A DNA stretch of 64,000 bases from Streptomyces marinisediminis (GTDB lineage: Bacteria > Actinomycetota > Actinomycetes > Streptomycetales > Streptomycetaceae). The number at the start of each line of letters is the position of its first letter. The first letter of the stretch is position 1. Below the pieces are notes generated by a model. The model was not told the DNA's origin, searched no databases, and was given only the letters and a program-made list of their open reading frames with translations. The stretch is from positions 1 to 64,000 of the forward strand of contig NZ_JAPKFL010000003.1 of NCBI RefSeq assembly GCF_026262575.1. The letters are read 5' to 3'. This document shows, piece after piece, positions 6,096 to 55,081 of the stretch. The position numbers were made by a program, and so were the translations under genes.

Positions 6096-7472
6096 GTGTC
6101 CGAGCTGCTGCACCTCCTGGAGCTGGGTGGCCCCCTCGTCGCGCTCGGCGGCGGGGCCGCCTGGGCCCGAGTCCGTCACCCGGCTCTCTACTGGAACACC
6201 GTCGGCCTGCCGCTGTCGGTCGGGCGGCTGCTGGCCTCGTACGGGTCGGTGATGGAGTCCTGTGGGCTGACGGTGGCCCCGACCCGGCTGCGGGCTCTCG
6301 CCGTGCACGCCACGACTCGGCGTGAGGTGCGGCCGGTTCCGCCTCGGCGGGGCCTCATGCGGCCGACGTCCACCGGGCTGCGGCTCCGGCTGCGGCTGGC
6401 ACCGGGACAGGAGCCCGCCGACTTCGCCGCCTCGGCCGAACGGCTGCGTCACGCCTGGGGCGTACACGCCGTCCACGTGACGCCGGTCAAGCCGGGTGTG
6501 GTGGAACTGCGGCTCGTCGGCTTCGACGTCCTCACCCGGGTGCGGATGCCGAAGTCGGCACCGGCCGAGCTGCTGAAGGTGCCGGTCGCACTGCGGGAAG
6601 ATGCCACGCCGTTCGTTCGCGACTACCTGACCGTGCCGCATCAGCTCACCCTCGGGGCGACGCTGTCGGGTAAGTCCATGTACCTGCGGAACCTGGTGGC
6701 CGGGCTCGCCCGTCAGCCGGTCGCCCTCGCTGGGATCGACTGCAAGCGCGGGGTGGAGCTGGCGCCGTTCTCAGCACGTCTGTCCGCCCTGGCCACCGAG
6801 CCGGATGAAGCCGCTGACCTGCTGTCGGCCCTCGTCAATGAGATGGAAGACCGCTACGACGTGGTCAAGGCACGGCAGGGCATCGCGCCCGACACCCCGG
6901 ACGAAGAGATCACTTCCGACGTCTGGGGCCTACCCGAAGCCGACCGTCCGGTGCCCGTCGTGCTGTTCATCGACGAGGTGGCCGAACTGTTCCTCACCGC
7001 GACGAAGAAGGACGAGGAACGCCGGGACGCGATGGTCACCCAGCTCATCCGCCTTGCCCAGCTCGGCCGCGCGGCGGGCATCCACCTGGAAGTCTGCGGC
7101 CAGCGGTTCGGCGCCGAGCTGGGCAAGGGCGCGACCATGCTCCGGGCCCAGCTCACCGGCCGCGTCTGCCACCGCGTCAACGACGAAGCCTCCGCCAAGA
7201 TGGCCCTCGGCGATATCGCCCCCGACGCCGTCGGCGCGGCCTGCGCCATCGCCCCGGAAAGGCCCGGCCTCGCCGTGGCCGGTGACACCTCCGGCGGCTG
7301 GTCCCGCATCCGCACCCCGTACCTCTCCCTGGGTGACGCCGCCGCCGTCTGCCAGGAGACCGCCGAACTGGTCCCCGACGTCCCGGCCCTCGCTCCGTAC
7401 CGGCCCGCTACCGCTGTGCCCGGCTGTGGCCCGCCCATGCCGCTGACCAAGCCCCGGCCCGTCACCGGCTGA
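6096..7472 (+). CDS. FtsK/SpoIIIE-type conjugal DNA translocase (TraSA-like)
   Basis: A 458-residue single-polypeptide DNA pump. It has an N-terminal region with a possible short hydrophobic segment (about 8-20), a Walker A GATLSGKS, a Walker B VVLFIDEVAELF and the FtsK-type IHLEVCGQRF segment. Actinomycete AICEs move as double-stranded DNA through one FtsK-like hexamer (Tra), and length and motifs fit that class. Start: GTG at 6096, one nt after the upstream stop TGA; a longer frame from 5910 overlaps the preceding gene and is less likely. The gene looks intact although the downstream element genes are deleted. Confidence 0.85.
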   Translation: MSELLHLLELGGPLVALGGGAAWARVRHPALYWNTVGLPLSVGRLLASYGSVMESCGLTVAPTRLRALAVHATTRREVRPVPPRRGLMRPTSTGLRLRLRLAPGQEPADFAASAERLRHAWGVHAVHVTPVKPGVVELRLVGFDVLTRVRMPKSAPAELLKVPVALREDATPFVRDYLTVPHQLTLGATLSGKSMYLRNLVAGLARQPVALAGIDCKRGVELAPFSARLSALATEPDEAADLLSALVNEMEDRYDVVKARQGIAPDTPDEEITSDVWGLPEADRPVPVVLFIDEVAELFLTATKKDEERRDAMVTQLIRLAQLGRAAGIHLEVCGQRFGAELGKGATMLRAQLTGRVCHRVNDEASAKMALGDIAPDAVGAACAIAPERPGLAVAGDTSGGWSRIRTPYLSLGDAAAVCQETAELVPDVPALAPYRPATAVPGCGPPMPLTKPRPVTG

Positions 7473-7555
7473 TCTCCCGTTCCGCCCCGGCCGGCGCGGC
7501 CTCCTCGCACCACGTCCCTACCCCGCCATGCCCGAAACCGAAAGGAGGTCCCGCG

Positions 7556-7737
7556 ATGCGCCGCTCGCTGGCCCGGCTCGACGCCGTACTGATCCAAGCG
7601 GTGATCGCCGGTGCCCTGTCCTTCGCCCACCTCCACGACCTGGCCGAAGCCGCCGGACAGCACGGCTGGATGGCCTGGGCCTACCCCGTCTCCGTCGACC
7701 TGCTCCTGGTCGCCGCCTGGCGACGCCTGCGAACCCG
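7556..7737 (+). pseudogene. Truncated DUF2637 (Spd-like spread) gene
   Basis: AAAGGAGG precedes an ATG and about 60 codons encode the N-terminus of a DUF2637 membrane protein (LDAVLIQAVIAGALSFAH, then WAYPVSVDLLLVAAWRRLR). Such Spd proteins act in plasmid spreading inside the mycelium. Family similarity stops near 7737: the frame then runs through the integrase tail and the tRNA to 8128, which is not a natural C-terminus. The gene is fused to other DNA by a deletion. The breakpoint is placed by eye and may be off by about 10 bp. Confidence 0.7.
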
Positions 7738-51573: not shown

Positions 51574-53010
51574 TCAGCCCCGGTACTCCTCCAGCAGCCG
51601 CAGCCAGATCTCGCTCATCGTCGGGAACGCGGGGACGGCGTGCCAGAGCCGTTCGATCGGCACCTCAGCGGCCACCGCGATCGTCGCCGCGTGCAGCAGC
51701 TCGCTGACGCCGGGCCCGACGAACGCCGCGCCGACGACGGTCTGCCGCTCCTCGTCCACCACCAGGCGCGCACGGCCCCGGTAGTCGTCGGCGTGGAGCG
51801 CGGCGCCGGCGACCGCGCCGAGGTCGTGGTCGACCGCCCGCACCCGCAGGCCGCGCTCCCGCGCCTGCGCGTGGGTCAGACCGACGGCGGCGGCCTCGGG
51901 GTGGGAGAAGACGACCTGCGGGACGGCGGCGGAGTCGGCGGTCGCGGCGTGCGCGCCCCAGCGGTCGGTCTCCAGCAAGGGGACCCCGGCCGCGCGGGCG
52001 GCGATCGCGGCTCCGGCGACGCGGGCCTGGTACTTGCCCTGGTGCGTCAGCAGCGCGCGGTGGTTGACGTCCCCCACGGCGTAGAGCCAGCCGCCCTTGA
52101 CCCCGCGCACCCGGCAGGAGTCGTCCACCTCCAGCCAGTCCCCGGGGGCGAGGCCGACGGTGTCCAGGCCGATGTCCTCGGTGCGCGGCGCGCGTCCGGT
52201 GGCGAACAGCACCTCGTCGGCCGTCACCTCCCCGCCGTCCTGCAGCGGCAGGGTCAGCGGCTCCCCGGGGCGCGGGCGGCGCACCTCCCGGGCCTCGGTG
52301 TTCGTCCGCACGTCCACGCCGGCGCGGCGCAGCCCGTCCAGGACGTACTCCCCGACGAAGGGCTCCATGCGGTCGAGCACCGACTCACCGCGGACGAGCA
52401 GGGTGACGGCGGAGCCGAGCGCCTGCCAGGCGGTGGCCAGCTCGACGGCGACCGGGCCGCCGCCCACCACGGCCAGTCGCCCCGGCACCTCCCGCGCGGC
52501 GGTGCCCTGCCGACTGGTCCACGGCTCGACGCCGTCCGGTCCGCCCAACCCCGGCAGTGGCGGCACCGTGGCCCGGGTACCGGTGCAGACGGCGACGGCG
52601 TGCGTGGCGGTGAGGGTGCGGCGCTCCCCGCCGGGGGTCTCCACGATCACACGCCGGGGGCCGTCGATCCGGCCGTGGCCCCGGATGAACTCCGCACCCG
52701 TGGAGTCGATCCAGCGCACCTGCCCGGCGTCGTCCCAGTGCGCGGCGAAGGTGTCGCGCCGCTCCAGCACGGCGCGCGCGTCCAACCGGCCGTCGGCGGC
52801 TTCCCGGGCGCCGGCCACCGCCCGGGCGTCGGCGAGCGCGGCGGGCGGCCGCAGCAGCGCCTTGCTGGGGATGCAGGCCCAGTACGAGCACTCGCCCCCG
52901 GCGAGCTCGCCCTCGACGACGGCCGCCGACAGCCCGGCGGCGCGGGCCCGGTCGGCGACGTTCTCGCCGACCGGGCCCGCGCCGAGCACGATCACATCAA
53001 AGAGGTCCAT
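51574..53010 (-). CDS. FAD-dependent pyridine nucleotide-disulfide oxidoreductase
   Basis: A 478-residue member of the dihydrolipoamide dehydrogenase/mercuric reductase family. FAD site GAGPVG near 10; redox Cys41 and Cys46 in GGECSYWACIPSK; NAD(P) motif VVGGGPVAVELA; dimerisation domain from about 345. The catalytic C-terminal His-x4-Glu is changed to PAFPTMSE, with Phe in place of the usual His, a property of a distinct actinomycete subgroup, so the electron acceptor is unclear. Start: ATG at 53010. Leftward, single gene. Confidence 0.9.
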   Translation of the reverse strand: MDLFDVIVLGAGPVGENVADRARAAGLSAAVVEGELAGGECSYWACIPSKALLRPPAALADARAVAGAREAADGRLDARAVLERRDTFAAHWDDAGQVRWIDSTGAEFIRGHGRIDGPRRVIVETPGGERRTLTATHAVAVCTGTRATVPPLPGLGGPDGVEPWTSRQGTAAREVPGRLAVVGGGPVAVELATAWQALGSAVTLLVRGESVLDRMEPFVGEYVLDGLRRAGVDVRTNTEAREVRRPRPGEPLTLPLQDGGEVTADEVLFATGRAPRTEDIGLDTVGLAPGDWLEVDDSCRVRGVKGGWLYAVGDVNHRALLTHQGKYQARVAGAAIAARAAGVPLLETDRWGAHAATADSAAVPQVVFSHPEAAAVGLTHAQARERGLRVRAVDHDLGAVAGAALHADDYRGRARLVVDEERQTVVGAAFVGPGVSELLHAATIAVAAEVPIERLWHAVPAFPTMSEIWLRLLEEYRG

Positions 53011-53258
53011 CCCGCCATGATGCGCGGCACGGGGCCGCAGCGCCCGTTACTCCGCCCCGCACGTCCCGCCCCGTCGCGCCCCGTCGCGCCCGATCGCGCC
53101 TCGGCGGCGCCGCGACCCGGCACCGGCGCGCTGCCCGGCTCGCGACGGCGCCCACGCCACCGTGGCACGCGTTCCCGGACCGCCGCGCGTCCGGGCGCCG
53201 CCGCGCGTCCGCCGCACGGTACCGGTGCGCGTCGCCCGCCGCACGGCACCGGCGGGCG

Positions 53259-54203
53259 TCACCGTTGTGCGGCGAGCGGTACCCGGGCCGGGCGGGTGGG
53301 CACCGGCGCCGTCAGCTCCCGCGCCCCCGCCGGGACGGGCACCGCGGCGAAGATCCGGCCCTGCTGCTCGGCCAGTTCCGCCTTGCGCTCGGGCGAGGTG
53401 CTCGGCAACCGCTGCTCCTCGTAGAGCGGGTGGGTGGCCAGCGCCGCCTCCCGGCTGGCCGGGGTGTGGAACTGGATCTCGTAGGCGTGGGCGTACATCG
53501 GGTCGCGCCACGCCGTGTTGATCGCCTTGTAACCGGTGTGGTTCTTCCAGGTGTTGGCCCAGCGGACGTTCTCGTGGTCCCAGGCGGCGAGCATGGATGC
53601 GGCCGCCTCGACGCCCTCGGTGTACTCGGCGTCGTCCCACTGGAGGGTGTAGCGCACGGAGTCGTTGAGGTCGGCCAGCGCCTCGTGGACGGTCTGGTCC
53701 GGGTCCTCGGTGAGCCAGGTGGCGATCTTGCGCTTCAGCGAGTCCTCGGACTTCATCCGCTGGTCGAAGCCGACGACCTCCGCCCCCGTCCAGGACGCGA
53801 CGGTGCGGATCTGGGGACTGATGGTCCGTTCGGCCTTGCGCGCCTGGTCCATGAAAGCGTTGACGGCGGCGTTGTCGGAGGCGTCCAGCCGCAGGTCGCC
53901 GTGGGCCCAGCCGGCGTCCTCGGCGGGCAGGGGCTGGGCCCGCCCGGGGTCCGCCGCGGCCTCCCGCTCCGCCTGGACGCTGATGTGACCCGTCGGCGGC
54001 CCGACGGGCAGCGGCTTGGTGATGCCCTTGCCGAGCACCGCACCGGCGGCGAGGGGGGCGCGGTCCGGGGCGGCGGCGGTGGCGGACGGAGCCGCGGTCA
54101 GGCCGAGAGCGGCGGCCAGCGCCACTCCCGTGACGGTCCGACCGGCCCGACCGGCGACCCAGCGGTGCGGGCGGGGCGGGGTGGACGTGGGCAGAGGAGT
54201 CAT
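53259..54203 (-). CDS. Secreted RelA/SpoT-fold nucleotide 3'-pyrophosphokinase
   Basis: A 314-residue exported protein: signal peptide about 1-44 (basic start, hydrophobic core, ending ATAAA) and a RelA/SpoT synthetase domain at about 95-265. The ATP-binding loop is R149-M-K151-S-E-D-S155-L-K-R-K159, D178/R184 correspond to the D-x-x-R-Y segment, GYKAIN (224-229) to the substrate Tyr loop, and E242-I-Q-F-H (242-246) to the catalytic EIQ. This is the class of the Streptomyces extracellular ATP nucleotide 3'-pyrophosphokinase, which makes (p)ppApp-type nucleotides outside the cell. Start: ATG at 54203; a longer TTG start at 54218 is unlikely. Confidence 0.87.
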   Translation of the reverse strand: MTPLPTSTPPRPHRWVAGRAGRTVTGVALAAALGLTAAPSATAAAPDRAPLAAGAVLGKGITKPLPVGPPTGHISVQAEREAAADPGRAQPLPAEDAGWAHGDLRLDASDNAAVNAFMDQARKAERTISPQIRTVASWTGAEVVGFDQRMKSEDSLKRKIATWLTEDPDQTVHEALADLNDSVRYTLQWDDAEYTEGVEAAASMLAAWDHENVRWANTWKNHTGYKAINTAWRDPMYAHAYEIQFHTPASREAALATHPLYEEQRLPSTSPERKAELAEQQGRIFAAVPVPAGARELTAPVPTRPARVPLAAQR

Positions 54204-54306
54204 CGGCGTACTTCCCAACGCTGGACGAGCACGTGCGCCGCGTATAACGGCGCACGTGCTCGACGCGTCACGGACGGTAGGCCGGACGGAGCTGGCGGCG
54301 GGTCAC

Positions 54307-54337
54307 GTTTCACGTGAAACGACGTTTCACGTGAAAC
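54307..54337. promoter_or_regulatory. Tandem pair of parS centromere sites
   Basis: GTTTCACGTGAAAC occurs at 54307-54320 and again at 54324-54337, both perfect 14-bp palindromes (centres 17 bp apart). This is the Streptomyces/B. subtilis-type parS sequence bound by ParB for chromosome segregation. Both sit in the gap between the pyrophosphokinase gene and the ABC operon end. Confidence 0.93.
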
Positions 54338-54358: not shown

Positions 54359-55081
54359 TCACTCCTCGCCGGTCAGCGCCAGCCTCTTCAGCCGCTGGCC
54401 GGCGTACCAGGTGCCGGCCACGGTCACCACCGCGAGCAGGATGGCCGCGGTGGTCAGTCCGACCGCCGAGGTGACGTCCACGCCGTCACCGACGACGCGT
54501 TCGGCCACCGCGAGGCCCCACTGCTGCACGCTGAGCGTGCGGGCGCCGTCGACGAAGGAGCCGAACAGCGCCTCCCACAGCAGCGCGTAGACCAGGCCGA
54601 ACACCACCGCGTGCCGGGTGACCGTGCCCAGGAGCAGGAACAGCGCACTGTAGGCGATCGAGGCGACGATGGCCGCGATGGCGAAGGCCGCCGCGATCTG
54701 CTGACTGCCGCCGACCAGGATGAACCCCGCCACCAGGATCGGCAGTCCGGAGAAGGCCATGGTGACGGCGACGGCCACGAACAGCTTCGTCACGATGATG
54801 GTGGGCCGCTTCAGCGGCTTGGACAGCAGGTAGACGATCGAGCCGTCATCGATCTCGGGGCCGATCGCCCCCGTCCCGGCGATGACGCCGATGATCGGCA
54901 CCATGGTGGCCAGCGCGAAGCTGCTCAGCAGTTGCACGGCCACCGCGTCGTCGGCGGCGTCCAGCAGGCGCACGGCGATCGCGATGACCAGCAGCAGCGC
55001 GGGCAGCGCCGACAGGATCAGGGCCCTGCGGCGGCCCAGGAGCGCCCGGTAAGTGAGCCGGGCGACGGTGGGGTCGTACAT
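54359..55081 (-). CDS. ABC-2 type transporter permease, distal gene
   Basis: A 240-residue membrane protein with six helices (about 20-40, 52-72, 94-118, 128-152, 158-180, 205-228). The segment AGTGAIGPEIDDGSIVYLLSKPLKR (about 67-91) is the ABC-2 coupling region. Start: ATG at 55081, 17 bp after the upstream ATPase stop. Last of four genes in an operon with two ATPases and two permeases; substrate unknown. Confidence 0.87.
   Translation of the reverse strand: MYDPTVARLTYRALLGRRRALILSALPALLLVIAIAVRLLDAADDAVAVQLLSSFALATMVPIIGVIAGTGAIGPEIDDGSIVYLLSKPLKRPTIIVTKLFVAVAVTMAFSGLPILVAGFILVGGSQQIAAAFAIAAIVASIAYSALFLLLGTVTRHAVVFGLVYALLWEALFGSFVDGARTLSVQQWGLAVAERVVGDGVDVTSAVGLTTAAILLAVVTVAGTWYAGQRLKRLALTGEE

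Follow-up and report, generated by a model that had tools for sequence, protein, structure and literature searches.

The reading frame at 53259-54203 of the window (the whole stretch of 64,000 nucleotides of Streptomyces marinisediminis DNA that was analysed) raises the question of what a synthetase of the RelA fold would do outside the cell, and of how its gene came to stand where it does. Exported alarmone synthetases (EAS) are a family described in 2025 (mBio 2025, PMC12691689), where SaEAS was shown to be a secreted alarmone synthetase of S. albidoflavus. Here, we propose that the gene very probably encodes an EAS of the SaEAS type, which would make both (p)ppGpp and (p)ppApp outside the cell.

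A synthetase with a signal-like N terminus

The gene and the parts of its product are listed below.

53259..54203, minus strand: EAS gene, stop codon included (ATG start, open reading frame of 314 aa)
54075..54203, minus strand: signal-peptide-like N terminus, residues 1 to about 43 (from the sequence and a heuristic; putative cleavage near ATA-AA, residues 41-45)
53298..53912, minus strand: SYNTH (RelA/SpoT synthetase) domain, residues 98-302 (8VX3 match, alignment, and model pLDDT mostly above 90)

The ATG is preceded by GGGAAG, and a search of the host genome showed that the gene is single-copy, the sole other match covering 52 residues of the N-terminal region at an E-value of 0.54. The N terminus has a basic n-region, a hydrophobic stretch at residues of about 23-38 and the sequence ATA-AA at residues 41-45, with no RR pair in residues 1-45. 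A home-made signal-peptide heuristic was positive for this protein, but it was also positive for three of 17 control reading frames of the window; the positive controls include one membrane permease, and several of the 17 frames are probably non-coding shadow frames. We regard the heuristic result as weak evidence for a signal peptide.

We also compared the protein with PDB sequences using phmmer, which gave one match, 8VX3 (E 5.7e-72, residues 98-302); this entry is named SaSAS in the PDB and corresponds to the SaEAS of Streptomyces albidoflavus. The Pfam RelA_SpoT model scored 12.5 bits against a cut-off of 27, so that the gathering threshold for canonical RSH proteins was not reached, and the C-terminal part of the NCBIfam XopAD model matched at E 3.2e-30, far under that model's whole-protein cut-off. 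Given the low Pfam score, the family assignment rests on 8VX3, the XopAD C-terminal match and the predicted fold. An AlphaFold2 model built from a 35-row alignment showed pLDDT values mostly above 90 in the domain and low confidence in residues 1 to about 90. This model matched 8VX3 with a Z-score of 27.7 and a deviation of 1.5 Å over 206 residues at 55% identity, and the TM-score against 8VX3_B, normalised to target length, was 0.95. The structures that followed were RelP/SAS2 (Z 14.4) and then RelQ, Tas1 (Z 12.6), CapRel and Rel, all with Z-scores of 14.4 or below.

Catalytic residues

The catalytic residues of the SYNTH domain are R149, K151, S155, K159, D181, R184, Y225, N229, E242 and Q244. 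The sequence-only reading had named seven of these (R149, K151, S155, K159, R184, Y225 and E242), and translation places all seven at the positions named. D181, which was absent from that list, aligns with D121 of SaEAS, the mutation of which inactivates the enzyme (PMC12691689). Adding 60 to the SaEAS number gives the number in the window protein throughout the alignment: D121/D181, R124/R184, K154/R214, N169/N229, E182/E242 and Q184/Q244. K154 is one of the five ATP-contact residues given for SaEAS (PMC12691689), and position 214 carries Lys in 40 rows and Arg in the other 32, out of 72 Streptomyces-type domain rows that come from the tree set and include the window protein. In the same 72 rows, the residues are kept as follows: R149 in 72, K151 in 69, S155 in 69, K159 in 67, D181 in 71, R184 in 70, Y225 in 70 and E242 in 72; N229 and Q244 also vary hardly at all. 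The relatives were picked by patterns with EVQFHT-like and LYEE-like motifs, and E242 sits inside one of these two patterns; therefore, its conservation is partly forced, and the same applies to those motifs generally.

Most departures from this set fall in a few rows. Two relatives, L092 (S. griseocarneus 132) and L097 (S. sp. UNOC14_S4), have lost S155, K159, R184, Y225 and N229, and a third, L099 (S. rimosus NRRL WC-3904), has lost K151, K159, D181 and N229 (all in window numbering). These three secreted-type homologues are probably inactive, and the window protein is not among them. Membership of the family alone is thus no guarantee of activity.

Features that the window protein shares with SaEAS are homology of the SYNTH domain, the catalytic residues, an 8VX3-like fold in the predicted model and no immunity gene found next to its gene. 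The delivery domain and cognate immunity gene that characterise the Tas1/Apk1 type were not found: a SYNTH domain behind a signal-like N terminus makes up the whole protein, and its annotated neighbours are unrelated. The earlier description of a secreted RelA-fold pyrophosphokinase is thus backed by the sequence, by the predicted fold and by an experimentally studied relative, SaEAS. The gene is real and was correctly described, with "secreted" the most likely reading, and it is of a kind already known.

Relatives and their distribution

A homologue at an E-value of 1e-10 or better is present in 13 of 150 genomes of the genus (the window's own counted), one of which, G080, has a distant 33% match only. 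A scan of genome contigs with an alignment as the query found 177 relatives, of which 80 were kept; with the window protein alone as the query, no relative was confirmed. The majority of the 80 carry the name Streptomyces, with S. albidoflavus and S. morookaense among them, and nine kept rows, mostly longer proteins from Mycobacterium talmoniae, Saccharopolyspora and some Streptomyces, form a separate branch. For comparison, 152 Streptomyces homologues have been reported (PMC12691689). Of 81 relatives (the 80 loci and G089), the heuristic marked 70 as having a signal-like N terminus, a count that contains errors visible by eye: L059 and L096 were missed, and L104, L105 and L109 were wrongly marked (hydrophobic stretches, long non-Sec proteins). 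In the divergent secreted-type homologues L012 and L013, a long linker rich in Lys and Pro joins the signal-like N terminus to the SYNTH domain, and three others (L095, L096 and L099) are of similar length.

S. morookaensis is one of three species named for earlier reports of extracellular activity (PMC12691689). The locus L081 of Streptomyces morookaense DSM 40503 (positions 6848-7624) encodes a protein with 61% identity over residues 104-300 and a signal-like N terminus, and we infer that it is the likely gene behind the classical ATP nucleotide 3'-pyrophosphokinase activity of that species. In a plasmid collection, 26 records matched, and the best of them was a Streptomyces plasmid gene with 55.8% identity, annotated "ATP nucleotide 3'-pyrophosphokinase".

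PADLOC gave no match, and a reading as a defence system was dropped on this ground. A phage origin was also dropped, as PHROGs and viral contigs gave distant relatives only, the best with 43% identity among the 80 rows listed. Two ordinary RSH proteins are encoded elsewhere in the host genome and could do the cytoplasmic work; across the whole genome, HD_4 matches are confined to the two frames that also gave the RSH synthetase matches.

A shared chromosomal position behind a permease gene

The EAS gene is flanked by the following genes.

54359..55081, minus strand: ABC-2 permease gene, upstream of the EAS gene on the same strand, marking the slot (Pfam, tblastn)
51574..53010, minus strand: pyridine nucleotide-disulphide oxidoreductase gene with a CSYWAC motif, downstream of the EAS gene on the same strand (Pfam, tblastn)

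We compared this slot by searching the fetched loci with 18 window frames (tblastn). The EAS gene directly follows a widely conserved ABC-permease gene in six genomes, and the oxidoreductase gene comes next in four of the six. In S. chumphonensis (L032), as in S. sp. 549 (L033), the gene order of the window is kept on both sides, out to serS, and G089 (L018) has the same block of permease, EAS and oxidoreductase genes, but turned round with respect to serS and the far flank. In S. sp. XM4193 (L034) and S. tardus (L078), agreement with the window is limited to the permease side, and the 7 kb downstream yielded no match to the oxidoreductase or to the serS-side genes. No EAS gene was detected between the permease and the serS-side genes at E 1e-3 in any of eight comparison genomes that carry both of these flanks (L112-L119; the L119 sequence starts inside the permease gene), and the oxidoreductase was also missing at the slot in these eight, with the exception of L116, which has a distant relative (29% identity). 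The relatives search covered 25 genus genomes (the window's own counted), of which all 25 have the permease and 23 have the oxidoreductase; in the complete genomes compared by coordinates (e.g. G005, G007, G009, G012 and G013), a distance of about a million bases or more separates the two genes.

A tree was built from 81 rows, namely the window, G089 and all of the 80 loci but one dropped fragment (79 loci). In this tree, the six same-site rows make up one side of a branch with an SH-aLRT value of 92, obtained by a quick method and not starred. The simplest reading is a single capture of the EAS gene behind the permease gene, followed by descent. Genes of the Sec type have been described as keeping no conserved position (PMC12691689); the six-genome clade would be an exception to this scattering, and it goes beyond what the available text of that report describes.

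The gap between the EAS and oxidoreductase genes is 248 nt in the window, about 60 nt in L032 and about 78 nt in L033, and in G089 the genes slightly overlap. The 248-nt gap of the window holds an 85-aa open reading frame (52992-53249). Two direct 27-nt repeats, 85% alike, lie in the same gap at 53206-53259, just 3' of the EAS stop codon. The Pfam matches of ten neighbouring reading frames (four of them without a match) included no immunity gene or alarmone hydrolase.

The region upstream of the gene

Three features lie between the EAS and permease genes.

54307-54320 and 54324-54337, no strand assigned: two tandem parS-type sites, GTTTCACGTGAAAC (motif scan)
54244..54272, minus strand: promoter-like pair CGTGAC-N18-GTTAT upstream of the EAS gene (pattern search)
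54226..54262, no strand assigned: perfect inverted repeat with 15-bp arms and a 7-nt loop, between the EAS start codon and the permease gene

The two copies of GTTTCACGTGAAAC compare with a chance expectation of 0.03 per window at up to two mismatches. This motif is tabulated for Mycobacterium smegmatis in PMC7022226, and the same table gives 21 sites for S. coelicolor, with a printed motif that differs by one base. The host genome has 16 exact sites, 15 of which are on the window's contig at 54-150 kb; therefore, the EAS gene lies at one edge of a parS cluster, which is presumably near oriC, and only the first part of this cluster falls within the window. At the other same-site loci, one exact site was found in L032, between the permease and EAS genes, and none in the fetched stretches of G089, L033, L034 and L078. 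Given that four of these five loci have no exact site, and that L112, which has no EAS gene at the slot, has two, we rejected a link between parS and the EAS gene. This distribution suggests that parS is tied to the region and not to the gene.

The pattern CGT[GT]AC, 17-18 nt, GTT[AG][TA] starts 67-71 nt upstream of the start codon in all six same-site genes, and it occurs within 100 nt upstream of two of 65 other genes. It was composed from these very sequences, and thus its absence from shuffles is no independent test. A sigma-70 consensus scan found nothing. We therefore speak of the promoter-like pair as only a footprint. The inverted repeat overlaps this pair; a regulatory role for it was dropped, as G089 keeps only its core and the remaining four same-site loci do not preserve its arms.

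Proposed activity and alternative explanations

For SaEAS, secretion, both products and the kinetics have been shown experimentally, and the enzyme favours guanylate acceptors but makes (p)ppApp as well (PMC12691689). The proposal that the window enzyme makes (p)ppApp therefore holds in part; it was too narrow, because guanylates are preferred and the expected products are (p)ppGpp and (p)ppApp. Since the window protein is 56% identical to the crystallised region of SaEAS, we infer that its catalysis and secretion are alike. Export would most likely be via the Sec pathway, with processing near residue 43-45. Once outside the cell, the mature SYNTH domain would use ATP as pyrophosphate donor and the 3'-OH of purine nucleotides as acceptor, taking guanylates (GMP, GDP and GTP) first and adenylates (AMP, ADP and ATP) once guanylates are scarce. 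The (p)ppGpp and (p)ppApp would thus be formed from nucleotides freed by lysing neighbours or old mycelium. Candidate roles are a lysis signal, a nucleotide drain on predators or competitors, and self-signalling; PMC12691689 leaves the biological role open. Beyond that report, the literature searched contained no second account of secreted alarmone synthetases.

One alternative is a diffusible antibacterial toxin, in which the secreted enzyme would enter neighbouring cells and drain their ATP and GTP, in the manner of the type VI-delivered Tas1/Apk1. The comparison with Tas1 had been made from the sequence, and it is sound as regards the fold (6OX6, Z 12.6, 18% identity), but no immunity gene next door and no delivery domain were found. 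SaEAS without its signal peptide is lethal to E. coli from inside (PMC12691689). Our searches found relatives of the domain in XopAD and phage head proteins, and links to XopAD, MuF, T6SS, T7SS and other exported proteins have been reported (PMC12691689). However, overproduced SaEAS had no effect on B. subtilis in co-culture, and it did not alter how S. venezuelae or S. coelicolor grew (PMC12691689). A role in competition, which had also been suggested for the window gene, is therefore unproven and is not supported for SaEAS under the conditions tried. In addition, the window protein has no uptake domain, and the short gaps before the oxidoreductase gene in relatives (about 60 nt in L032 and 78 nt in L033, with an overlap in G089) leave no space for an immunity gene. 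We consider such a toxin unlikely.

CapRel and FaRel2 act on tRNA (for CapRel, also according to the PDB title), and the fold is shared with both (7ZTB, Z 12.3, and 8PU3, Z 7.4), so that the 3'-CCA end of tRNA, or some other acceptor, might take the place of free nucleotides. Yet the window protein is far nearer to SaEAS, a free-nucleotide enzyme (55-56% identity against 13-14%), which makes this very improbable. A last alternative is a SYNTH protein that is degenerate or stays in the cytoplasm, its N terminus not working as a signal peptide. This would be in keeping with the Pfam score under the cut-off, the crude heuristic behind the signal peptide and the three secreted-type relatives with lost catalytic residues, but it can hardly be reconciled with the intact catalytic set, with the demonstrated export of SaEAS and with the toxicity that an active enzyme would have in the cytoplasm (PMC12691689).

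In the six-genome clade, the EAS gene is often placed ahead of a flavoprotein oxidoreductase gene, with a kept promoter-like footprint and, in the window's genome, in a parS-rich region. It is conceivable, although we give it little weight, that one Streptomyces lineage captured the synthetase as a resident gene behind the permease gene, where it would serve the producer itself as a lysis or developmental signal to its own mycelium and would not be a scattered weapon. Unlike the scattered copies (PMC12691689), a lineage with a constant upstream neighbour and a promoter-like footprint is a natural place to study EAS regulation. Apart from the shared slot, the published family simply gains one more member, with 56% identity to the construct crystallised for SaEAS. 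The sequence-only reading is correct in outline, yet what it described was already known from SaEAS.

Comparison with known systems

RelP and RelQ (6EWZ and 5DED) share the SYNTH fold (Z 14.4 and 13.2) but have 13-18% identity to the window protein, and these small alarmone synthetases are cytoplasmic and use guanylates. The XopAD C-terminal domain and the domains linked to phage head proteins are homologous to the SYNTH domain, but they occur within large proteins that are associated with type III secretion or with phage heads. Tas1/Apk1 (6OX6), a type VI effector of Pseudomonas aeruginosa, is also a pyrophosphokinase with the SYNTH fold; it differs in its 18% identity, in being adenylate-specific and T6SS-delivered, and in having an immunity protein (PMC12691689). 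The classical S. morookaensis enzyme is known from its activity, with no link to a gene found in the literature searched, as far as the available texts go. SaEAS (8VX3; PMC12691689) is closest: the domain is 56% identical, the catalytic residues are the same save for the Arg in place of K154, the predicted fold lies within 1.5 Å, and both proteins have a signal-like N terminus and no adjacent immunity gene found. The two differ in that SaEAS is on another branch of the tree (S. albidoflavus, row L071), and the window protein has a longer linker at its N terminus and is encoded behind an ABC-permease gene, as in five other genomes, with the oxidoreductase gene next.
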